Source: Acidobacteriota bacterium
GTDB lineage: Bacteria; Acidobacteriota; Terriglobia; Terriglobales; Acidobacteriaceae
Assembly (NCBI GenBank): GCA_021780315.1
Contig: JAJXYY010000030.1
Coordinates: 1-64,000 of the forward strand
DNA length: 64,000 nt
Direction of reading: 5' to 3'
This document shows, one piece after another, positions 50,351 to 63,097 of this stretch. The stretch's first letter is position 1. Every line of letters starts with the position of its first letter. The notes below the pieces were generated by a model. That model was not told the origin of the DNA. It made no database searches and saw only the letters and a program-made list of their open reading frames with translations. The position numbers were made by a program, and so were the translations under genes.

Positions 50351-51613
50351 CTAAACCGTTAAATCTGCCCCCTTCGCCTCCGGCCCCAAAGCCGTCACCA
50401 ATGCCACAAATAAAGCCACCACCGCCACCGTTCCAGCCAACACCGGACGCAGCATCCCACCAAAGTAAGTAGCCGCCAACCCCGCCTGAAACACCCCATT
50501 CCGCGAAGAAATCAAGTTCCCCATCTGGTACGCCAAACCCGGAAAAATCGCCCGAACAGGCCCCGGAGAAAGCTCATTCAGATGCGCCGGAATCACTCCC
50601 CATGCACCTTGCACCATCACCTGCATCAAAAATCCCCCTAAAGCAAGACCCAACATCGAATGCGACCAGGCCCACAGCGGAATCATAGGCATCGTCAACA
50701 GTGCCGCAAAAATTATCGTCTTCTTTCGACCAATGCGTTCCGATAACGCACCGCAGCAAATCCCCCCCAGCAACGCACCTAAATTACTCACCACCACAAT
50801 CAGACCCACCGCGCGCGGTGCCAATCCATTATCTTTCGCCAAAAAAGTAGGGTAAAGATCCTGCGTACCATGACTGAACGCAGTAAACATGGTCATCAAA
50901 ACCACAATAAACAGAAACATGGGTAAATACCCCACCATCCCCTTCCATTTCCACCCAGAACGCCCCGAACTCCGCGCCAGTGCTCGCGTTTCCCGCGCGG
51001 CCAGCCACGTCGGCGACTCTTCAACATTGAAGCGCAGATAAAACGCCAGCAAAGCCGGCAACGCACCAATCATGAACATCACCCGCCAGCCAGTAAACAT
51101 CCCCAGCCCATGCAAGTGTGGAAACAGCACCCCATACAACGCCGCAGCCAGCAGGTTTCCAACAACATAGCCTTCCTGTAGCAGCCCGGAGAAGAAACCT
51201 CGCCCCGAAGCTGGCAAAGTCTCCAGCGCCAGTGCCGCGCCTACTCCCCACTCCCCACCCATAGCAACTCCGAACAGGGCCCGGCACACCAGAAAGCTCC
51301 CGAGTGACGGTGCAAACGCAGAAGCCAGTTCAAATAAAGAGAAAGCAACTACATTCACCATCAGGGTAGGACGCCGCCCATACCGCTCTGCCATCCACCC
51401 GAAAACTAACGCTCCCACTGGACGCATCACCAACGTCCAGAAGATTGCCTCCGCTACTTCCTTGATCCCCACATGGAACTCCGCCGCAATGGCCGGAAGA
51501 CATAACGTGAGGAGAAAGAAATCAAAAGCATCCAGACTCCACCCCAAAAAACAGGCGGTAAACGTACTCGTCTGGACCCGGGTCAGGGATCGTATTTCCT
51601 TGAAAAACGCCAT
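50351..51613 (-). CDS. MFS transporter, SHS (sialate/lactate:H+ symporter-like) family
   Basis: 'FLGWSLDAFDFFLLTLCLPAIAAEF', 'RPVGALVFGWMAERYGRRP', 'GVAMGGEWGVGAALALE'. Start MAFFKEIRS. Confidence 0.8.
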   Translation of the reverse strand: MAFFKEIRSLTRVQTSTFTACFLGWSLDAFDFFLLTLCLPAIAAEFHVGIKEVAEAIFWTLVMRPVGALVFGWMAERYGRRPTLMVNVVAFSLFELASAFAPSLGSFLVCRALFGVAMGGEWGVGAALALETLPASGRGFFSGLLQEGYVVGNLLAAALYGVLFPHLHGLGMFTGWRVMFMIGALPALLAFYLRFNVEESPTWLAARETRALARSSGRSGWKWKGMVGYLPMFLFIVVLMTMFTAFSHGTQDLYPTFLAKDNGLAPRAVGLIVVVSNLGALLGGICCGALSERIGRKKTIIFAALLTMPMIPLWAWSHSMLGLALGGFLMQVMVQGAWGVIPAHLNELSPGPVRAIFPGLAYQMGNLISSRNGVFQAGLAATYFGGMLRPVLAGTVAVVALFVALVTALGPEAKGADLTV

Positions 51614-51676
51614 ATCGTCGCATCCTAGCATCCACAAGGCCAGAAGACCGTACAAAAAAGCTCGCGAAAATAAAAC

Positions 51677-51703
51677 AGCCACTCCGCATAGGCCAGAGTG
51701 GCT
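51677..51703 (-). terminator. Intrinsic terminator of the LuxR-type regulator (end of the minus-strand amide-ligase unit)
   Basis: AGCCACTC...GAGTGGCT hairpin; on minus followed by GTTTTATTTT. Confidence 0.75.
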
Positions 51704-51727
51704 CAAATATCAATAAATCCAGCTTGG

Positions 51728-52510
51728 CTACATCTTGGCGCGCAGTGGCTGTGACGGCTCAGTCTGGCCAAAACCAGTGCTGTCGGCCTCCTGCAAATAC
51801 TGCTTCAACAACTCATGATGCAGACAGTAGAGAGCCAGCTCAAGACGGTCCGAGACTCCCAGCTTGTCATAAATCTTGCGCAGATAATTCTTGATGACCT
51901 GCTCAGTCGTTCCAATCTGATAGGCGATCTCCTTGTTCCGCATACCCCGCGTAATGCAGCTAATAATCGCCAGTTCTTTTTTGGACAACTTGGGCTGAAC
52001 GCGCGGATCAGTCAAGGTCGTAGCCTGCGACCGATACGCCTCAATTACCCAGCTAATCGACTGGTTATCGATCCAGGTCTCGCCTTCCGCAATCTTCCGA
52101 ACACACTTGACCAGCAGGTCGGGCGATATTGAGCGCGGTACAACCCCACGTACCCCACGTCGGTACAGTTCCACCGTGTTCGACTCATCTGTCTCACTCA
52201 CCTGCACAATAATCTTCGCGTCAGGTGCACGCCGAACCAGCTCAGGAATCGCATCGATCGTCCCCGATATCAGTTGACCTTCCAGAACCACCACATCCGT
52301 AGGGTAGCGCTGCAATGCGGCGTACAGATTCGCCAGTGTCTCAACCTGCGCTACTACGCGGATATCATCCTCAACGGCGAAGATCTTCTTCATTCCCACA
52401 CGGTAGATAGCTTGCGAGTCAGCTAGAATCACGCGTATTCCAACACCGGATGTGCTCTCGTCCAGTGGCTCTTCTTCATTACGACTTGGATCTATATTTA
52501 CAACCGTCAT
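51728..52510 (-). CDS. Response regulator, REC + LuxR-type HTH
   Basis: 'RVILADSQAIYRVGMKKIFAVEDDIRVVAQV', 'LSKKELAIISCITRGMRNKEIAYQIGTTEQVIKNYLRKIYDKLGVSDRLELALY'. Confidence 0.9.
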   Translation of the reverse strand: MTVVNIDPSRNEEEPLDESTSGVGIRVILADSQAIYRVGMKKIFAVEDDIRVVAQVETLANLYAALQRYPTDVVVLEGQLISGTIDAIPELVRRAPDAKIIVQVSETDESNTVELYRRGVRGVVPRSISPDLLVKCVRKIAEGETWIDNQSISWVIEAYRSQATTLTDPRVQPKLSKKELAIISCITRGMRNKEIAYQIGTTEQVIKNYLRKIYDKLGVSDRLELALYCLHHELLKQYLQEADSTGFGQTEPSQPLRAKM

Positions 52511-52512
52511 GT

Positions 52513-52923
52513 TCAGGCCTTTAGAAAATATTCGTCGATCACTGCGGCGGCCTTCTTGATATCACCCTGTTGCTGGTGACGAACCACACGGCCAACGCAA
52601 TGAATGGTCACATCTTTTGCAGATCCCATCACCGCAGAAGGCATCGCAATTGTGAATTCGATTCTGCTATCGATCTCAGGCAGGGTCTCGCTCACAAATA
52701 ACAATCCGTTCGCAGAGATGTTCTCCGTGACTGCTTCTAATGCACCGCTTTCCGTCTTCACATGCAAAATTAACTTCATGGGAAAACGAACCGCAGTACG
52801 AACTGGATTTTCCCCGTTGGGCTTGTGCCGTAGGGCCACATGTCCTCCTTGCACCACTCGCTCAGATACACGCATGTTTTCTACGTTGAAGTCTACCGTA
52901 CCTGAATAGTAACCGGAACGCAC
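52513..52923 (-). CDS. PilZ-domain protein
   Basis: 'RTAVRFPMKLILHVKTESGALEAVTENISANGLLFVSE' PilZ-like pattern; 2-bp gap to the regulator. Confidence 0.75.
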   Translation of the reverse strand: MRSGYYSGTVDFNVENMRVSERVVQGGHVALRHKPNGENPVRTAVRFPMKLILHVKTESGALEAVTENISANGLLFVSETLPEIDSRIEFTIAMPSAVMGSAKDVTIHCVGRVVRHQQQGDIKKAAAVIDEYFLKA

Positions 52924-52943: not shown

Positions 52944-54158
52944 TCACTCCTGCGGAAAAAGCACGGCAGACCCTCCTACCCATTCCCGGTTACGGTTATG
53001 GTCCACCCCCATCATCAGCCCGCGCCCCATACGAGCCAGACTCACCACGGGTTCCAGAACTCCTCCGTCCGGCCACAAATACATGATCCGTATCTCAGCC
53101 TGGGTCAGCCCGTGCGGCGTTGCAATGACAGGCTCAAAATCGACCCGCTCCTGCATTAGGTAATTATGTCGATGCCCCTCTGGAATCAAGTCCAAACTAG
53201 CATCAGAAGGTTCAAACTGTATGCCATTCCCAGCAAAGGAATACAACGGCTTCAATAGCACTCGTTCCCGCTCTTCCGGAAAGCCAACACCCAAACGACC
53301 TGCATACCAATCGTCAAGAAATACCGCTCGCGGAACCGCTTCATGATGCAAATATGGGAGAGAAAACTTGCTTATCTTGAAATACCAGTTCGGATGCCCA
53401 GCCCACTCCACTTCCAAGTCATCCCGATAATCGAACGGCAGTTTCACCTCCTTGCGTTCAATTTCGTCAGCGATCACCCGATTGAATATACGTTCAATCG
53501 GTATCCACCGTCCCCCGCGTTCGTACCACAACTTGCTCCCGACTTTGCGCACTTTCTGAACATCAACGGTCCTCACGGCCAGACGATCTTCGTAAACGTG
53601 AAAATCTGGCCGTGTCTTCTGGCTCTCCGGCTCTATCTCCATCAACACTACATTCTCGGGGTCGTGGTCTCCGACAATTACGCGCCGCAGCAAGGCCCAA
53701 TAGCTCGCATCATCATGCCCACCCAGAAGCCAGTTCAGTTTGCTGTCGAGACCATAGGTCTCGATATATGCAAGGCCTAGCACATCCTGATATCCGAACA
53801 TCGAAGGAAATGCCTGCATCTCGACCAGTTTCGGACGCAGCCTTCCAGACTCATCCTTCGTCAGACCGAAATCCACTGTCATGAAGTGCGGATGCCCGCT
53901 CACGCCCGGAACCCGATAAGTAGAAGGCACTGCATCTTCAGCTGCCTGTAAATACGCAGAATTATTCAGGAGTAGTTGAGTCAATTCAACGCCAAAACCA
54001 GCCATCTCCTGAACCATGTCCTGTGATAGAAAACAAGGAGTCTCGCACACCCTGAAATCAATCGCAGCCCTGGTATCCCGCTCCAGGCGAGACAACAGGG
54101 CTGCATACTGTGCCGCGGAGTAACGGTGATTGAACTCCTCACGAAAAGACTGAAGCAT
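52944..54158 (-). CDS. Uncharacterised ATP-grasp-like protein
   Basis: 'RVLLKPLYSFAGNGIQFEPSD', 'NYLMQERVDFEPV', 'AEIRIMYLWPDGGVLEPVVSLARMGRGLMMGVDHNRNREWVGGSAVLF' resemble ATP-grasp ligase motifs. Confidence 0.6.
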   Translation of the reverse strand: MLQSFREEFNHRYSAAQYAALLSRLERDTRAAIDFRVCETPCFLSQDMVQEMAGFGVELTQLLLNNSAYLQAAEDAVPSTYRVPGVSGHPHFMTVDFGLTKDESGRLRPKLVEMQAFPSMFGYQDVLGLAYIETYGLDSKLNWLLGGHDDASYWALLRRVIVGDHDPENVVLMEIEPESQKTRPDFHVYEDRLAVRTVDVQKVRKVGSKLWYERGGRWIPIERIFNRVIADEIERKEVKLPFDYRDDLEVEWAGHPNWYFKISKFSLPYLHHEAVPRAVFLDDWYAGRLGVGFPEERERVLLKPLYSFAGNGIQFEPSDASLDLIPEGHRHNYLMQERVDFEPVIATPHGLTQAEIRIMYLWPDGGVLEPVVSLARMGRGLMMGVDHNRNREWVGGSAVLFPQE

Positions 54159-54198
54159 GGCTGCTAGTCTATCCTTACTCAGTCCCGGCCCACGATTT

Positions 54199-55152
54199 TT
54201 ACGTCAACTGGGTTGCCAGATACTCACCGATCTCAGCGTACTCCGCCTCGCTCAACGCGAATTCCAGGGCAGGGATAACACCATCTACCTGTTTGGCGCT
54301 GCGCCCGCCGACGATCGCAGCCGTAATTGCCGGGTTATGCCGAGTCCACGCAATCGCAACAACTCCGGCAACGACACCATGCCGAGAACCTATCTGCTGC
54401 ATCAAGTCCGCCAGCCCCAGGTTCCAAGTCAGGAAGGGCTCCTGGTATTGTTTTGCCTTCCGGCGAAAATCGTTATCGGGCAGTGCCGCTACCCTCTCCT
54501 TGCTCATTGCGCCAGTCAACATACCGGAGTGCATCGGAGCATAGTTAATGACGCCAATACCTTGCTTCAGGCAGAACGGCAAAATATCCGCCTCAACCGA
54601 GCGATTGATCGCGGAGTATGGCGGCTGCAACGATGTAATTGGAGCGATCTTCATGGCTCGTTCCATCTGCGCCACGCTGAAGTTGGAAACACCAATCCAG
54701 CGCACTTTGCCTTCCCGTCGCAGCTCCGCCATTGTCGTCCAGCCTTCTTCTACTTCTTCATCCGGAAATGGCCAGTGGATCTGATAAAGGTCAATCACAT
54801 CTACCTGCAACCGTCGCAAACTTGCCTCTACTTCCGCCCGTATCGTTTTGAGAGACCGCGAAACCTCGCGATTTTCGTCCCATACCATCCCACATTTGGT
54901 AAAGACATAAGGCTTCACACTAGATGTCTTTAAGGCAGCTGCGACGATCTCTTCTGAATATCCCAGCCCATAAACAGCCGCAGTATCAATCCAGTTGATC
55001 CCCAGTTCGAGTGCCCGGTGTATCGCAGCAATCGAATCAGCGTCGTCCTGCGGACCCCATCCAAACGCCCAGTCACCGCCGCCAATCGCCCACGCACCAA
55101 ACCCTACCGGGGAAAGGTGCAAATCAGAGTTGCCTAACTGCTTCTTAGTCAT
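54199..55152 (-). CDS. Aldo/keto reductase
   Basis: 'KKQLGNSDLHLSPVGFGAWAIGGGDWAFGWGPQDDADSIAAIHRALELGINWIDTAAVYGLGYSEEIVAAAL'. Confidence 0.93.
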   Translation of the reverse strand: MTKKQLGNSDLHLSPVGFGAWAIGGGDWAFGWGPQDDADSIAAIHRALELGINWIDTAAVYGLGYSEEIVAAALKTSSVKPYVFTKCGMVWDENREVSRSLKTIRAEVEASLRRLQVDVIDLYQIHWPFPDEEVEEGWTTMAELRREGKVRWIGVSNFSVAQMERAMKIAPITSLQPPYSAINRSVEADILPFCLKQGIGVINYAPMHSGMLTGAMSKERVAALPDNDFRRKAKQYQEPFLTWNLGLADLMQQIGSRHGVVAGVVAIAWTRHNPAITAAIVGGRSAKQVDGVIPALEFALSEAEYAEIGEYLATQLT

Positions 55153-55266
55153 AATGTCCTTTTAGATGCCACCAAAAGAATAAAGCACCGCTTGCGACTC
55201 GAAAACCAGACCTGCCAACCATTGGCATCCTCAGGCTCCACCGATCAGCGATGGAACATGACGACG

Positions 55267-56334
55267 CTAAACGTCGAGCAGGAAGGCCCCATCACGCATG
55301 ATCTGCTCTTCCCCATCCGGTCCACCCAGCCAGATATTGAATCCCAGGCCCACCACATCAATATGTGTCGAGGACTTCCACGGCGCTCCGGTATGTGCTC
55401 CATAGGGATCGCCAAAGGCGATATGCACCCCAGGAAATTTCTCATCCTGTAGGATGTTCCCAATTACCCGCTTTACGCCGATGTTGGTTCCAATTGCAAA
55501 CTCACCCACCCTATCCGAATTTTCGTCAGTATGCGTGTACTCCCAGAACTCCTGCTCCAGAGCCTTGTTCTCACACGAAATCTGTGTGATCCGGTTACCT
55601 TCAATGTGAATTGTCAGCGGCGTCTCTCGCAAGATTCCATATCGCTTGCACAGGTAATCGCCAACAACGCCATCCACCACAAACACACCATTCACCTCCG
55701 CTGGCGATGTAAAGCACTCACCTCCCGGAAGATTACCCCACTTCTCCGGACTGATGATCCCAGAGGTTTTGAACCAACGATAATGCGGCGAAAGCTCGGC
55801 ATGGATGTCCGTACCTGCTGCTGTCGTCGCACGGACGTATGTTGCCTTACGAACCTTATCCAGCACAGCTTGGCTCAACGTGTCGATCGCAAGAAAATCC
55901 GCACGCATGCCCTGCATCATGATCTCTGCCGTAATATTCACCATGTGCGCATGGCGCATTCGTCTCCGATTGACAACGTCGGTCATCTGCATGCGGCTAT
56001 GTAGCTCATTCGGCTGCACCTCAACTGCAAAGATGCTCACCTGCGAAGTCTCCATATCTTCGAGCACGACCGGCGGCATCTCAACCAAAGGACGTGATGC
56101 CACGGCTTCCAAGACAAACGCATTCCAGACACAGCCAATACTATCCAGTTCACTTGCCAGTGACGCTGCAATTTCCACACATCGCTCGTCCGTTATCAGT
56201 GTCACTTTCTCACTTGGCTGAATCTTCAGACAGGTCTTCACCGCATTCCGTGCACCCGATGTAAACTCGGCCGGAAATGTCGTCGTCCGAAGATCTACAG
56301 ATCCATACATCGTTGCCAACTCAACCATATTCAT
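55267..56334 (-). CDS. Aminopeptidase, M29-like metallopeptidase
   Basis: 'AVKTCLKIQPSEKVTLITDERCVEIAASLASEL', 'GGECFTSPAEVNGVFVVDGVVGDY', 'VGEFAIGTNIGVKRVIGNILQDEKFPGVHIAFGDPYG..THIDVV'. Confidence 0.8.
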   Translation of the reverse strand: MNMVELATMYGSVDLRTTTFPAEFTSGARNAVKTCLKIQPSEKVTLITDERCVEIAASLASELDSIGCVWNAFVLEAVASRPLVEMPPVVLEDMETSQVSIFAVEVQPNELHSRMQMTDVVNRRRMRHAHMVNITAEIMMQGMRADFLAIDTLSQAVLDKVRKATYVRATTAAGTDIHAELSPHYRWFKTSGIISPEKWGNLPGGECFTSPAEVNGVFVVDGVVGDYLCKRYGILRETPLTIHIEGNRITQISCENKALEQEFWEYTHTDENSDRVGEFAIGTNIGVKRVIGNILQDEKFPGVHIAFGDPYGAHTGAPWKSSTHIDVVGLGFNIWLGGPDGEEQIMRDGAFLLDV

Positions 56335-56486
56335 CGTCCTTTAATAACAACTCGTCTACAGCTTATATTGAGTTCCGCGTTTCATGACTAATCAGGTTTG
56401 GAGTAATTTGAGATAGAAATATAAAACGCCAACCGACAAACGCCAGATTCACAGAATCTGTTTACCGAAACAAGGCCACAACTACC

Positions 56487-57590
56487 TCAAAGACCTGCCT
56501 TTGTCTCCCGTGCCATGTAATCCACTACGGCGCGCAACGATCCCGTCTCGCGAAATACTTTCAACTGCCTATCAGCGCCTGAGCCATGTTCAAGCATCGT
56601 ACGGATGTAGTTGATTTCGTTCCGGCTCCCCAACTCGTCCAGTACGTCATCGATAAACAAAAGGTATTCCTCAATCAGCTCACGTGCAGGAACCTCCTGT
56701 TGTTTGCCGAAGTCGATCATCTTTCCGTCCAACCCATACCGCACAGCACGGAACTTGTTCTCCATCAATAGTGCCCGCGAATACTGACGATAGTCCAGAT
56801 TGCGTGCATGCAGATGCCATAACTTACATGCCGTGGCCTGAATCAGAGCTGCAATAGCAATGGATTCCTGCGCCCGCAGGGGTATGTCGCAAACCCTCAC
56901 CTCGACAGTATTGAAGAACGGATGCGGACGAACGTCCCACCAGATCTTCTTTGCATTATCGATGCTGTTTGTCTTGATTAGGAGATTCACGTAACTCTCA
57001 AATTCGGAGTAGCTCGCAAAGCTATCAGGCAGATTCGTTCTGGGAAAGTTCTCAAAAACTTTCGCTCTGTAGCTTTTGTAACCCGTCTCCATGCCGAGCC
57101 AGAACGGAGAGTTTGTCGACAACGCCAGAATATGCGGCAGAAAATATCTCAGCGAATTCATGATGTGGATCGCCGCCTCGCGATCCTCAATCCCTACATG
57201 AACATGCAATCCGAAGATCAGGTTCGCACGCGCTACCAACTGCAGATCCTCTACCACCTGCTTGTATCGCGGATCCGGATAGATCTCCTGAACCCGCCAA
57301 TCAGCGAAAGGATGGGTCGCGCCTGCAACCAGTACTAAGTTATGCTCCTCAGCCAGACGAATCATGTTACGACGCAGATCGAACAGGTCTTCCTGCGCCT
57401 CATGAATATCCTTGCAGACCCGTGTTCCCACCTCAATCACCGACTGGTGCATCTCAGCCTTGACCCGCTCCTCCAGCCGCAACTTTCCCTGCGCCAACAT
57501 CTCCGTCGCTATATGCGAACGCAGATCACGCGTCTCAGGATCAACCGTCTGGTACTCTTCCTCAATACCCAGTGTGAACGTAGGACGCAT
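56487..57590 (-). CDS. ybdK: YbdK-family carboxylate-amine ligase (GCS2)
   Basis: 'FTLGIEEEYQTVDPETRDLRSHI', 'RVCDIPLRAQESIAIAALIQATACKL', 'ENKFRAVRYGLDGKMIDF'. Confidence 0.92.
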   Translation of the reverse strand: MRPTFTLGIEEEYQTVDPETRDLRSHIATEMLAQGKLRLEERVKAEMHQSVIEVGTRVCKDIHEAQEDLFDLRRNMIRLAEEHNLVLVAGATHPFADWRVQEIYPDPRYKQVVEDLQLVARANLIFGLHVHVGIEDREAAIHIMNSLRYFLPHILALSTNSPFWLGMETGYKSYRAKVFENFPRTNLPDSFASYSEFESYVNLLIKTNSIDNAKKIWWDVRPHPFFNTVEVRVCDIPLRAQESIAIAALIQATACKLWHLHARNLDYRQYSRALLMENKFRAVRYGLDGKMIDFGKQQEVPARELIEEYLLFIDDVLDELGSRNEINYIRTMLEHGSGADRQLKVFRETGSLRAVVDYMARETKAGL

Positions 57591-57646
57591 AGCACTCTCC
57601 AGAATGTCGCTGCAAAACCACTAGAGCGATGTTATTTGGAATTACT

Positions 57647-58690
57647 CTAACTCGACTTCACCTTCGTTGCTCTGGCGGCCTTCGGTTTTGACACAGCTTT
57701 TACCGGAGCCTTGACGGGTTCCTTCCCTTTTGCCTTCGTCTCGCTTGCCCCGGACAATAAGACAGTCCAGTTCATACCTGACTGCTGACTACCAGCGTGC
57801 TTTGCTTTCTTCACGGCCAGTTTGGCGACAGCATCCACTATCCAATGGAAGCTAGCTTCCCCAACAGAGTGCAGGTCCGCATCTGGTGCGGGGTTCATAA
57901 AGTCGATTGCGTAAGGAATCCCATCCTCGACCGCAAACTCAACGGTATTCAGGTCGTACCCCAGAGCCCGGCACAAGGTAATTGCGTCCTGTTCCACCCG
58001 CTTGAGCAGCTTCTTGTCATACTTCGGTGGATCAAGCACGTACCTCTGCTCATGCGGTCGGCGCGGGTCGTACGGCATAATCCGCACATGCGATTGCCCA
58101 ACAACATAGCAGCGAAAATACTCCTTGAAACTCACTGCAGCTTGCAGCGTCATGCAGAGATCACGAGTCTGATCGTACGCAGCAAAAAACTCTTCGCGAT
58201 TGTGAACATGGAAGACATCCCGCCATCCACCACCATCATGTGGCTTGAGAAAAGCTGGAAATTTGACGTACTCAAAAATCCCTTCCCAATCCAGTGGATA
58301 CTCCAGATTTCGGAGGGAACGGCTTGTCGTCTGGGGCGGATATTGTTTGTGTGGCAGTAGCACTGTGCGAGGGACCGCGACACCTAACTTCGACGCCAAA
58401 GCATAATTGAAAAATTTATCGTCCGCGGACCACCAGAAAGGATTGTTGATCACTTGAGTCCCGGTAAGCACAGCATTTTTCAAGTAAGCCCGATAGAAGG
58501 GTACGTCGTGCGATATACGGTCTACGATGACATCATAGCCACAGGGTTCTGCCATCTTAACGCCACCCAACTCCACAAATTCGGCTCGAATCCCATCAAT
58601 CTCCATCGAATTGATCTTGTCGACAAGAGCACTGGGAAAAGTATTTTCCATCCCGAACAGAACACCGATCTTCTTCACCTGACTCCTCCG
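57647..58690 (-). CDS. RimK/D-Ala-D-Ala-ligase-like ATP-grasp enzyme with Lys/Ala/Pro-rich C-terminal tail
   Basis: 'FPAFLKPHDGGGWRDVFHVHNREEF', 'EQDAITLCRALGYDLNTVEFAVEDGIPYAIDFMNPAPDADLHSVGEASFHWIV'; tail 'KAPVKAVSKPKAARATKVKSS'. Confidence 0.85.
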   Translation of the reverse strand, partial: RRSQVKKIGVLFGMENTFPSALVDKINSMEIDGIRAEFVELGGVKMAEPCGYDVIVDRISHDVPFYRAYLKNAVLTGTQVINNPFWWSADDKFFNYALASKLGVAVPRTVLLPHKQYPPQTTSRSLRNLEYPLDWEGIFEYVKFPAFLKPHDGGGWRDVFHVHNREEFFAAYDQTRDLCMTLQAAVSFKEYFRCYVVGQSHVRIMPYDPRRPHEQRYVLDPPKYDKKLLKRVEQDAITLCRALGYDLNTVEFAVEDGIPYAIDFMNPAPDADLHSVGEASFHWIVDAVAKLAVKKAKHAGSQQSGMNWTVLLSGASETKAKGKEPVKAPVKAVSKPKAARATKVKSS

Positions 58691-58731
58691 CATAACATCT
58701 AACCAAACTGCACAACCGAGTTGCGTGCAGC

Positions 58732-59442
58732 CTAAAGATACGTCTGTATCATCCGCTGCCACCATGGCCAATCATGCCCGGTATGGTCACCCCAGACATC
58801 CAACCGACAAGGTATCTGTTTGCTCCGGAACACTCGCGCCAAACGCTCATTGTCGTCCCAGCACATATCTTCTACGCCTGTGGCAAGGACGTAATTACCC
58901 TGCCGATATCTTTCCAGAAACCAAGGGTCCGTGGTTTTGGGCAGATAATCCAAAGGTAGATTGAAGTAACAATCCTCGTCGTAGTAGCCGCGGAGAAAAT
59001 TTGCAGGATGAAATGCGCCGCCCATCGACAGAAATCCGCTGAATATGGCGGGATGACGCAAAGCCAGATTGACCGCATGATAGCCGCCAAAGCTGCATCC
59101 AGCAGTCACCAGACTCGAGGTCTGGTTGTATCTGCGAATCAGGGGGAGAACTTCCTTCATAAGGTATTGCTCGTACTGAAGGTGCCGGGCAATCCTCCAG
59201 CGTGGGGGGACAGCGCGGTTATACCAACTCTCTGAATCGACCGAATCAACGCAGATAAGCTGAAGCCGCCCCTTTTCCAGATCATCATTCACCGCCTGAA
59301 CCATCCCTCGATCTTCAAACTCGAAGAACCGGCCGCACGAGGTTGGAAATACCAGAACCTGCATGCCAGCATGACCAAAAACAAGCAACTCCATGTCGCG
59401 CCCAAGTGCCTGTGAGTACCACCTGTGATAATCGCGTTTCAA
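58732..59442 (-). CDS. Esterase/alpha-beta hydrolase family protein
   Basis: 'LVTAGCSFGGYHAVNLALRHP' nucleophile elbow (GCSFGG), 'WGDHTGHDWPWW' His. Confidence 0.85.
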   Translation of the reverse strand: MKRDYHRWYSQALGRDMELLVFGHAGMQVLVFPTSCGRFFEFEDRGMVQAVNDDLEKGRLQLICVDSVDSESWYNRAVPPRWRIARHLQYEQYLMKEVLPLIRRYNQTSSLVTAGCSFGGYHAVNLALRHPAIFSGFLSMGGAFHPANFLRGYYDEDCYFNLPLDYLPKTTDPWFLERYRQGNYVLATGVEDMCWDDNERLARVFRSKQIPCRLDVWGDHTGHDWPWWQRMIQTYL

Positions 59443-59445
59443 TCG

Positions 59446-60354
59446 ATGCCCTCTGCTAACATCTTACTCACGGGAGCCGCCTTCTTCGCATTGGAACTAC
59501 CACCCAACCAATCTGACATCCGTCGTCCTATCAACGGTCCCGTTGCACAACGGATCCTACATCCACATGCCAGCGAAGAACTTGTAGCAAATCCCCGTTA
59601 TCACTTTTACAGCTTTCACTCAGCAATTCTCCCCGATGATCGAGCAGTGTCCGTTTATCTGCCACCGCAGTATCTAGTCGATCCAACCCGCAGATTTCCC
59701 GTCTTTTATCTTCACGATGGACAGAACCTCTTCGATGGCACCACATCCTACATTGCTGGCAGAACTTGGAAAGCACAGACAACAGCCGATGCACTCAATC
59801 AAGCCGACAGCATAGAACCGATCATCCTGGTTGGTGTCGCTAACACAGGGCTTCGCCGTTTGGCGGAATACACCCCCACCCGTGATTTCAAGATGGGCGG
59901 CGGCGAAGGCCGCAACTATGGGCGTTTGCTCATTGAGGAGTTAAAGCCGTTCATTGATGCGACCTACCGGACCTTTGTTGACCCGGCCAACACTGCACTT
60001 GGAGGCTCATCTCTGGGCGGTCTGATAACGTTGCACCTAGGCCTTGAGCATCCAGAGGTCTTCGGGAAACTCGCGGTAATGTCACCATCCTTATGGTGGG
60101 ACCATCGATCAATCCTGACCGCTGTCGCCAATATGAAAATAAACAGTGTTCCTAGGATATGGCTTGACATGGGGACAGCGGAAGGCGCCCGCCATGTCCG
60201 CGATGCCGACCAACTTTACAGCCTTCTGATCCAGCGAGGCTGGAGGAGCAATATCGATGTTATTTACTACCGAGACCAGGATGCCGTTCACGATGAGGTT
60301 GCATGGTCGAACCGCCTCGGAAGCGTACTGCGCTTCCTCTTCCCCGCGATATAG
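59446..60354 (+). CDS. Esterase D/enterochelin-esterase-like alpha/beta hydrolase
   Basis: 'RRFPVFYLHDGQNLFDGTTSYIAGRTW', 'TALGGSSLGGLITLHLGLEHPEVFGKLAVMSPSLWW'. Divergent from the minus-strand esterase. Confidence 0.85.
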   Translation: MPSANILLTGAAFFALELPPNQSDIRRPINGPVAQRILHPHASEELVANPRYHFYSFHSAILPDDRAVSVYLPPQYLVDPTRRFPVFYLHDGQNLFDGTTSYIAGRTWKAQTTADALNQADSIEPIILVGVANTGLRRLAEYTPTRDFKMGGGEGRNYGRLLIEELKPFIDATYRTFVDPANTALGGSSLGGLITLHLGLEHPEVFGKLAVMSPSLWWDHRSILTAVANMKINSVPRIWLDMGTAEGARHVRDADQLYSLLIQRGWRSNIDVIYYRDQDAVHDEVAWSNRLGSVLRFLFPAI

Positions 60355-60495
60355 CCGTCTCTATATCTTTTTCAGAATTGCGAAAAACAACAATATCCGC
60401 CATACTTAGGTGTTGGGTGATATCAGGCTTCGTAACCTGCTTAGAACTTCGAGATGCTGTTTCGCCCAAAATAAACGTTTTGAAAGGCAATCCCA

Positions 60496-60756
60496 GTGTT
60501 GATGATCCGATTGGCGCGCGTTGGAGCGCGCAAGCAGCCCCACTACCGCATTGTTGTTATCGAAAAAGACCGCGCTCGCAATGGTCGTTCCGTTGAGGTA
60601 GTAGGCACCTACAATCCCCGCACGAATCCAGCAACCGTCGACCTGAAGCGTGATCGTATCGATTACTGGACTGGCAATGGCGCTCAGCTTTCTGATCGCG
60701 TTGGCAAACTGCTTGCCGCTGCGGCCTCGAACAATCCCGAAGCAACCGCCGCCTAA
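60496..60756 (+). CDS. rpsP: 30S ribosomal protein S16
   Basis: 'MLMIRLARVGARKQPHYRIVVIEKDRARNGRSVEVVGTYNPR'. Confidence 0.97.
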   Translation: MLMIRLARVGARKQPHYRIVVIEKDRARNGRSVEVVGTYNPRTNPATVDLKRDRIDYWTGNGAQLSDRVGKLLAAAASNNPEATAA

Positions 60757-60776
60757 GGTTACCCAAGATACGCACC

Positions 60777-60805
60777 CTTTGGGAACATAGCTCAAGTTCC
60801 CAAAG
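60777..60805 (+). terminator. Hairpin downstream of rpsP (terminator/attenuator candidate)
   Basis: CTTTGGGAAC-atagctcaa-GTTCCCAAAG followed by TTTGCTTATGTTTTT. Confidence 0.55.
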
Positions 60806-62015: not shown

Positions 62016-62936
62016 CTAAAATTTGTAAGCAAACCCCATCGAAACAATCGGATAGATCTGGTACTTCTTCAATTGTTCGTTGATCAGCGCTGCTTCCTGA
62101 TTGATACTAGCTTGGCTCGACGGATCTGTCGCCATGTTGAAACAGCCCTGTGAGGTGCAGGCCGTTCCGGCCAGCTTGATATTCATCCGCGCTGCACCCA
62201 TGTATCCTGCCCCAACTTCGATCGGTATCGTCAGATGCTTATGTCTTCGGGGCAGGATATTCCCAAAGCCCACCGTGAACATTGGCGCAAATCTGTGCGC
62301 ATACCCGATCGAGGCCGTACCGGTAACAGGGTCGTCGATACTGTTCACAAAGGTTGCATCGCCCAATTGAAACTGCTGTCCAGGAGGTGCACTGAGAACG
62401 CTGCTCACAGAGTTCTTGAAGTAAAGAACACCCGGACTGAGGTGTAGTCCGCCATGAAACGGAAACCAATCGATGCTGGCTTGCTCAGACTGAAAATGCA
62501 GTTTTGATGCATAGCTCACACCATCTAGATTCAATCCATAGCCAAACCGTAGAAAATTACCGCCGGTACGAAGATTGAAACTCTGCGAAAGCGGTGTCGC
62601 AAACTCGATCCCTCCACCAAGAGTATCAACCTTGAACCCCACACCAAAACTTGAGAACGGACGAACCCGTCGCGGATCCTGGTTTGACTTGATTTTCTGC
62701 TTGATAAGACGGGGAGGTAGCGTGCTACCGGTAGCTGCTTCCGCTGCAATCGCTTCAGGTACCCCAGCACTCGCCGAAACTTCCATATCTTTAGCCCCGC
62801 CGACATCCTCACTGTTCGACGAGCTCAACGCGATTCTGTCGATCGAGGAGCTTCTGGCTACAAGCGTTTGCCCAAAAACCGCAGCACCGCCCGGGACAAG
62901 CAGCAACATCAATGCGGCACTTCGCTTTAGTAACAT
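62016..62936 (-). CDS. Predicted secreted outer-membrane beta-barrel protein, unknown function
   Basis: Signal 'MLLKRSAALMLLLVPGGAAVFGQ'; alternating amphipathic strands, C-terminal 'YQIYPIVSMGFAYKF'. ORF track start 63095 probably too long. Confidence 0.65.
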   Translation of the reverse strand: MLLKRSAALMLLLVPGGAAVFGQTLVARSSSIDRIALSSSNSEDVGGAKDMEVSASAGVPEAIAAEAATGSTLPPRLIKQKIKSNQDPRRVRPFSSFGVGFKVDTLGGGIEFATPLSQSFNLRTGGNFLRFGYGLNLDGVSYASKLHFQSEQASIDWFPFHGGLHLSPGVLYFKNSVSSVLSAPPGQQFQLGDATFVNSIDDPVTGTASIGYAHRFAPMFTVGFGNILPRRHKHLTIPIEVGAGYMGAARMNIKLAGTACTSQGCFNMATDPSSQASINQEAALINEQLKKYQIYPIVSMGFAYKF

Positions 62937-63097
62937 GGCGCGGGCCCTTTCATTACCTCTGTTATCGGCCTGAGTCTGAGCACGGATAGTGAGTACGTCA
63001 ACCCCAAATTGAATACACTGAGAGATGATCACCTTGTACGCTATCAATTTGCTCGCAGGAGATCGATACAACCATTGTTTGATTTGCCGACCCAACT

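Follow-up and report, generated by a model that had tools for sequence, protein, structure and literature searches.

Three co-occurring acidobacterial genes, one for a ligase of predicted glutathione-synthetase fold, as a probable pathway for a small amide-linked compound

Introduction

The closest described relatives of the gene cluster considered here are the predicted amidoligase peptide-metabolite clusters of Iyer and colleagues (2008-2009), in which ligases stand beside peptidases of unrelated folds. In these clusters the partner of ligases of the glutamine synthetase (GS) fold is either a thiol peptidase resembling amidotransferases or a gamma-glutamyl cyclotransferase, from which glutathione-like peptide synthesis was inferred, and they set a precedent for hydrolase partners that can be exchanged (PMC2588565). 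In the present study we analysed a comparable arrangement in a window of 64,000 nucleotides, positions 1 to 64,000 of contig JAJXYY010000030.1 of a soil-dwelling Acidobacteriota bacterium (Acidobacteriaceae). Six metabolic genes lie on its minus strand from 59442 to 52944 and encode an alpha/beta-hydrolase (Est1), a RimK-like ATP-grasp ligase, a YbdK-type carboxylate-amine ligase, an M29-type metallopeptidase, an aldo-keto reductase (AKR) and G404, a protein of 404 amino acids.

The combination with G404 and the exchange of the peptidase described below were not found in the amidoligase-cluster literature searched, the 2009 survey lying outside its coverage. The N-acetylglutaminylglutamine amide (NAGGN) system, which serves a dipeptide osmolyte, likewise has an ATP-grasp ligase and a peptidase encoded in a single operon; it relies on an asparagine-synthetase-like enzyme, and its peptidase is of the M42 family, neither of which was seen in the operon of the window. 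Here we report that YbdK, M29 and G404 are the obligate unit of the cluster, not the whole operon, and we propose that they probably represent one dedicated pathway for making and trimming or turning over a small amide-linked compound, possibly of gamma-glutamyl type.

Results

Three genes are gained and lost together

Gene presence was compared within one phylum, in 396 Acidobacteriota genomes sampled phylum-wide and in 44 genomes of the window's family listed as at least 99% complete, with thresholds of E<1e-30 for the RimK-like protein, E<1e-100 for YbdK and E<1e-60 for M29; absence of a gene in a draft genome can reflect missed sequence. YbdK, M29 and G404 occupy exactly the same 21 of the 44 family genomes. 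The rpoB tree of the family requires at least seven gains or losses, in which the three genes always go together, and all six independent pairs are concordant for the trio (p=0.031, with some genomes near-identical and several tree forks weak). Est1 and the RimK-like gene accompany the trio in all 21 genomes and occur in ten and eight others, respectively. Five genomes of the same genus without the trio have kept Est1-RimK, followed in four of them by (AKR)-PilZ-response regulator, with a few hundred bases at the place of the trio.

Each of the 44 family genomes has the response regulator, whether it carries the ligases or not, so that this gene and, by position, the PilZ gene are syntenic neighbours; the regulators, which the earlier note had counted among the cluster components, are thereby ruled out as parts of the system. 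The obligate unit is confined to YbdK, M29 and G404; Est2, a second hydrolase on the opposite strand, and the AKR are optional neighbours.

Across the phylum G404 was found in 50 genomes, the RimK-like protein in 130, YbdK in 123 and M29 in 31. Forty-six of the G404 genomes carry the RimK-like gene and 44 carry YbdK, both being present in 44. In a scan of genome contigs, the best 80 of at least 595 confirmed stretches are all titled Acidobacteriota. No match to G404 or to the RimK-like protein was obtained in 72,556 plasmids, and spread by plasmids was discarded as a candidate.

Gene order across relatives

The order Est1-RimK-YbdK-M29-(AKR)-G404 is seen again in many further Acidobacteriota, among them Granulicella sapmiensis, Granulicella sp. 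L60 and Acidobacteriaceae bacterium KBS 89, and thus the clustering goes far beyond chance. Conserved co-occurrence outside this genome had been set as a test by the earlier note, and this recurrence provides it. In the genus and family the arrangement is Est2 / Est1-RimK-YbdK-M29-(AKR)-G404-PilZ-response regulator, and metagenome-assembled genomes of Bryobacterales show Est1-RimK-YbdK-M29-G404. One could suppose that unrelated genes have become neighbours by accident, which is exactly how PilZ and the regulator appear, and Est1 and the RimK-like gene do persist without the rest; but the perfect co-occurrence of three genes in the family and an order kept across many families make this extremely improbable as a general account and largely refute it for YbdK, M29 and G404.

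Some loci depart from the common arrangement. In one genome (G014, loci L018 and L096) G404-PilZ-response regulator lies about 370 kb from Est1-RimK-YbdK-M29 on the same contig. At L071 (4892-10511) the cluster appears to be in decay: of YbdK just a fragment is left, and the G404 frame is interrupted close to its beginning, while M29 is still open.

In families without G404, a permuted ATP-grasp of PF14403 often adjoins RimK, and YbdK comes next in several instances. Examples of this protein beside the RimK-like gene, often with YbdK, are L134 (9992-11332, plus strand), L120 (10089-11444, plus strand) and L126 (7843-9183, minus strand). The PF14403 protein is the probable counterpart of G404, and since it adjoins RimK where G404 is missing, a second ligase of the permuted fold seems to be a general part of the cluster.

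G404 is predicted to be a circularly permuted ATP-grasp

G404 (52944-54158, minus strand) gave no sequence match in Pfam, NCBIfam or PDB, and none at the sequence level with any glutathione synthetase. Its AlphaFold model, built with 62 homologues, has a pLDDT of 93.7 and a pTM of 0.92. Foldseek with this model retrieved yeast glutathione synthase (E 2.4e-15, TM 0.61), and the best PDB matches are the yeast and human glutathione synthetases, 3n6x (a putative glutathionylspermidine synthase), YgiC and Cp1B. Each of the 24 PDB matches at E<0.001 is glutathione-synthetase-like, 3n6x, YgiC or Cp1B. Profile comparison by hhalign aligned G404 to a PF14403 family with 95.6% probability. As judged from the model, the most fitting description of G404 is that of a circularly permuted ATP-grasp forming a family of its own, nearest to the eukaryotic glutathione synthetases. 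The ATP-grasp fold that the earlier note had proposed for the 404-residue protein, and named as a further test, is therefore the predicted one, in the permuted form of the eukaryotic glutathione-synthetase kind.

G404 shares with the eukaryotic glutathione synthetases, YgiC, Cp1B and PF14403 proteins the overall fold (Foldseek E down to 2.4e-15) and, by alignment, a conserved Lys that would belong to the ATP site and a Glu and an Arg that would correspond to metal and substrate residues. It differs from them in a sequence identity of only about 14%, in having E-x-Q and not E-x-N, in a Ser at a position of the glycine-rich loop that is acidic in them, and in constituting a separate family of about 400 amino acids without a Pfam model. 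K303, E113, E355, R227 and R376 are invariant across the 62 G404 sequences, their equivalence to residues of the relatives coming from alignments that are not structure-based. G404 is likely to be catalytically active, although its catalytic set is partly unusual. One of its structural relatives, the fungal Cp1B, is a proven dicarboxylate-amino acid ligase, which couples trans-epoxysuccinate with an amino acid on the way to E-64 and had itself carried the annotation hypothetical (PMC12568646).

The partner ligases

The YbdK protein (56487-57590, minus strand; GCS2, PRK13515/TIGR02050) scores above both curated cut-offs, with 532.9 against 371 bits for NF010039 and 316 against 176 for TIGR02050. 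Its GhExE motif, described as the Mg/ATP site of the GCS2 group (PMC2588565), is intact as G-I-E-E-E, with the G and the first and third E invariant. While it resembles other YbdK/GCS2 ligases in passing the family cut-offs and keeping GhExE, it is unlike them in having G404 and M29 as obligate partners in the window's family. The YbdK of E. coli is only a weak gamma-glutamylcysteine ligase.

A GCS2 enzyme next to a glutathione-synthetase fold has the chemical logic of glutathione synthesis, and we considered whether the product could be a glutathione-like thiol for redox defence. BshC, the last enzyme of bacillithiol synthesis, occurs in every one of the 44 family genomes, whether or not they carry the cluster, so that a primary thiol probably exists already, and a role as the main thiol pathway is unlikely on this ground; the patchy presence in 21 of 44 genomes also ill suits a housekeeping thiol. 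The thiol reading is accordingly very improbable. No bifunctional glutathione-ligase-like gene (TIGR01435) was found in the five genomes examined.

The RimK-like protein (57647-58771, minus strand; 374 amino acids), a RimK/Ddl/LysX-like ATP-grasp ligase, stays far below the cut-off of rimK_fam (TIGR00768; 24.1 against 143.4 bits) and is not filed as RimK. The start of its gene likely lies near 58693, as judged from homologues. Its model (pLDDT 85) has the canonical ATP-grasp fold, as in RimK, D-Ala-D-Ala ligase and LysX/ArgX; it falls between D-Ala-D-Ala ligase and LysX/ArgX and matches RimK, LysX and ArgX, with a best target-normalised TM of 0.76 to LysX/ArgX. Unlike in the RimK and LysX systems, no LysW carrier or ribosomal S6 context was seen with the gene.

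These matches to RimK, LysX and ArgX would fit a system for tagging proteins or peptides, in which proteins receive amino acids or a small peptide from the ligases, in the manner of RimK with ribosomal protein S6, and lose them again through M29; a ligase with a peptidase would suit such writing and erasing. We regard tagging as improbable, given that YbdK and G404 resemble small-molecule ligases, that M29 peptidases are exopeptidases, and that the gaps of the operon leave no room for a sizeable tag gene. These gaps are of about 38, 56, 152, 114 and 40 bp, too short for a sizeable open reading frame, which makes an encoded precursor peptide or carrier within the operon unlikely.

The peptidase is exchanged for an unrelated protein

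The M29 protein (55267-56334, minus strand) matches PF02073 (49.6 against 27 bits, E 3.6e-13) over residues 163-350, that is, its C-terminal half only, and its profile found no solved M29 structure. E206, E278, H304, H324, D326 and Y311 are invariant in nine homologues; E206, E278, H304 and H324/D326 (His-x-Asp) are the presumed M29 metal ligands and Y311 the presumed catalytic Tyr.

M29 is obligate in the window's family, and in other families its position is taken by a GAT-like protein of about 340 amino acids in which Cys-His and HHPE motifs are invariant. M29 occurs in 28 of the 50 genomes with G404 and the GAT-like protein in 15, both in none and neither in 7; the probability of zero overlap by chance is 7.6e-8, uncorrected for kinship. 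The two alternate even inside two genera, g93 (G145 and G387 vs G203 and G318) and g128 (G227 vs G366), where the replacing GAT-like gene is sometimes away from the cluster. At L069 (15999-17021, minus strand) the gene for a GAT-like protein is separated from its cluster by about 5 kb and stands outside the peptidase position. The motifs are suggestive of a class I amidotransferase. Assignment as a class I glutamine amidotransferase was rejected, there being no Pfam match and only 6.6% hhalign probability to GATases, with the HPE motif region alone aligned. The best reading is that M29 is replaced by a non-homologous, interchangeable amide hydrolase, and such interchange points to an amide being released or recycled.

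An exchangeable amide hydrolase together with a GS-fold ligase and an oxidoreductase also recalls the Puu-like use of amines protected by gamma-glutamylation. YbdK would then glutamylate an amine, the AKR act on the intermediate and M29 or the GAT-like protein, whose invariant motifs would be in keeping with this, remove the glutamyl group. We consider this route unlikely, as the AKR is optional, the GAT-like protein is not confirmed as an amidotransferase, and catabolism needs no two further ATP-grasp ligases, G404 being strictly tied to YbdK in the family.

Layout of the locus and neighbouring genes

Gene and domain calls bear out the genes, strand and order given by the earlier note, with six minus-strand genes between 59442 and 52944 in place of the seven claimed, and with a spacing that is close but not uniformly tight. 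Est1 (58732-59442, minus strand; PF00756) has a GxSxG motif (GCSFG), and the AKR gene occupies 54199-55152 on the same strand. Downstream of G404 follow, on the minus strand, the PilZ-domain gene (52513-52923), the NarL/LuxR-type response regulator gene (51728-52510) and then a terminator-like hairpin (51677-51703), present as a pattern of a 10-bp stem and a T tract, as had been noted. Est2, an alpha/beta-hydrolase that indeed diverges on the plus strand (59425-60354), may have its true start near 59590, because conservation often begins near residue 57.

A gene for an MFS transporter similar to sialate:H+ symporters (50351-51706, minus strand; TIGR00891, 342 bits against a cut-off of 553) is conserved after the regulator in several relatives, as a product transporter or a plain neighbour. 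Two minus-strand proteins on the other side have no Pfam match: one of 129 amino acids (60406-60795), found with about 40-57% identity between Est2 and a KH-domain gene in many relatives, and one of 359 (62016-63095), encoded opposite to and between rimM and trmD and kept in part of the genus. GC skew is strongly negative throughout 10001-50000, for the most part between about -0.3 and -0.47 when taken in 2-kb steps, at a GC content of 0.57-0.67; in the cluster region it is weaker, with GC near 0.51-0.53. A search with PADLOC gave 0 matches for five proteins, and an anti-phage defence system was discarded.

Discussion

The pathway that we favour for YbdK, M29 and G404 would lead to a small, soluble, amide-linked product, peptide-like and possibly gamma-glutamyl. 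YbdK would convert a carboxylate into an acyl phosphate and join it to an amine; this carboxylate is probably the one at the gamma position of glutamate, or that of some similar acid. G404 may then phosphorylate the free carboxylate of the YbdK product and add a second amine or amino acid. By analogy, a GS-fold ligase combined with a ligase of glutathione-synthetase fold has the logic of stepwise tripeptide synthesis. M29, or the unrelated hydrolase-like protein in other lineages, would cleave one amide bond, for release or recycling of the product. The RimK-like ligase and Est1, which would also function without the three core genes, may supply or modify a building block. We infer the order of the reactions, the gamma-glutamyl chemistry and the small-molecule nature of the product. 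The making and processing of a peptide-like compound that the earlier note had ascribed to the whole operon thus stands as the best reading in the form of a ligase-plus-peptidase amide or peptide pathway, with the regulators, Est2 and the AKR outside the unit.

Several observations weigh against this proposal. The catalytic set of G404 is partly unusual, with Gln replacing Asn in the E-x-N motif and, in the glycine-rich loop, S307 at a position that is Glu or Asp in related proteins, so that activity is not assured. In Edaphobacter lichenicola and close relatives G404-PilZ-response regulator lies hundreds of kb from Est1-RimK-YbdK-M29, and one transcript is thus not required for the cluster genes. 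RimK-type ligases, furthermore, can modify proteins too.

In the present study we have singled out a unit of three jointly moving genes, by which some close relatives mainly differ, and a fold is now predicted for an unannotated family present in about one in eight of the sampled acidobacterial genomes. From their exchange, M29 and the GAT-like protein are predicted to cleave the same bond. While Acidobacteriota abound in many soils, to our knowledge few of their metabolites are known. More tentatively, and with rather low confidence, the cluster may make a new gamma-glutamyl-type peptide metabolite of this phylum, for whose assembly a GCS2 ligase and ligases of a new glutathione-synthetase-fold family would serve, with processing by either of two non-homologous amide hydrolases that swap within genera.

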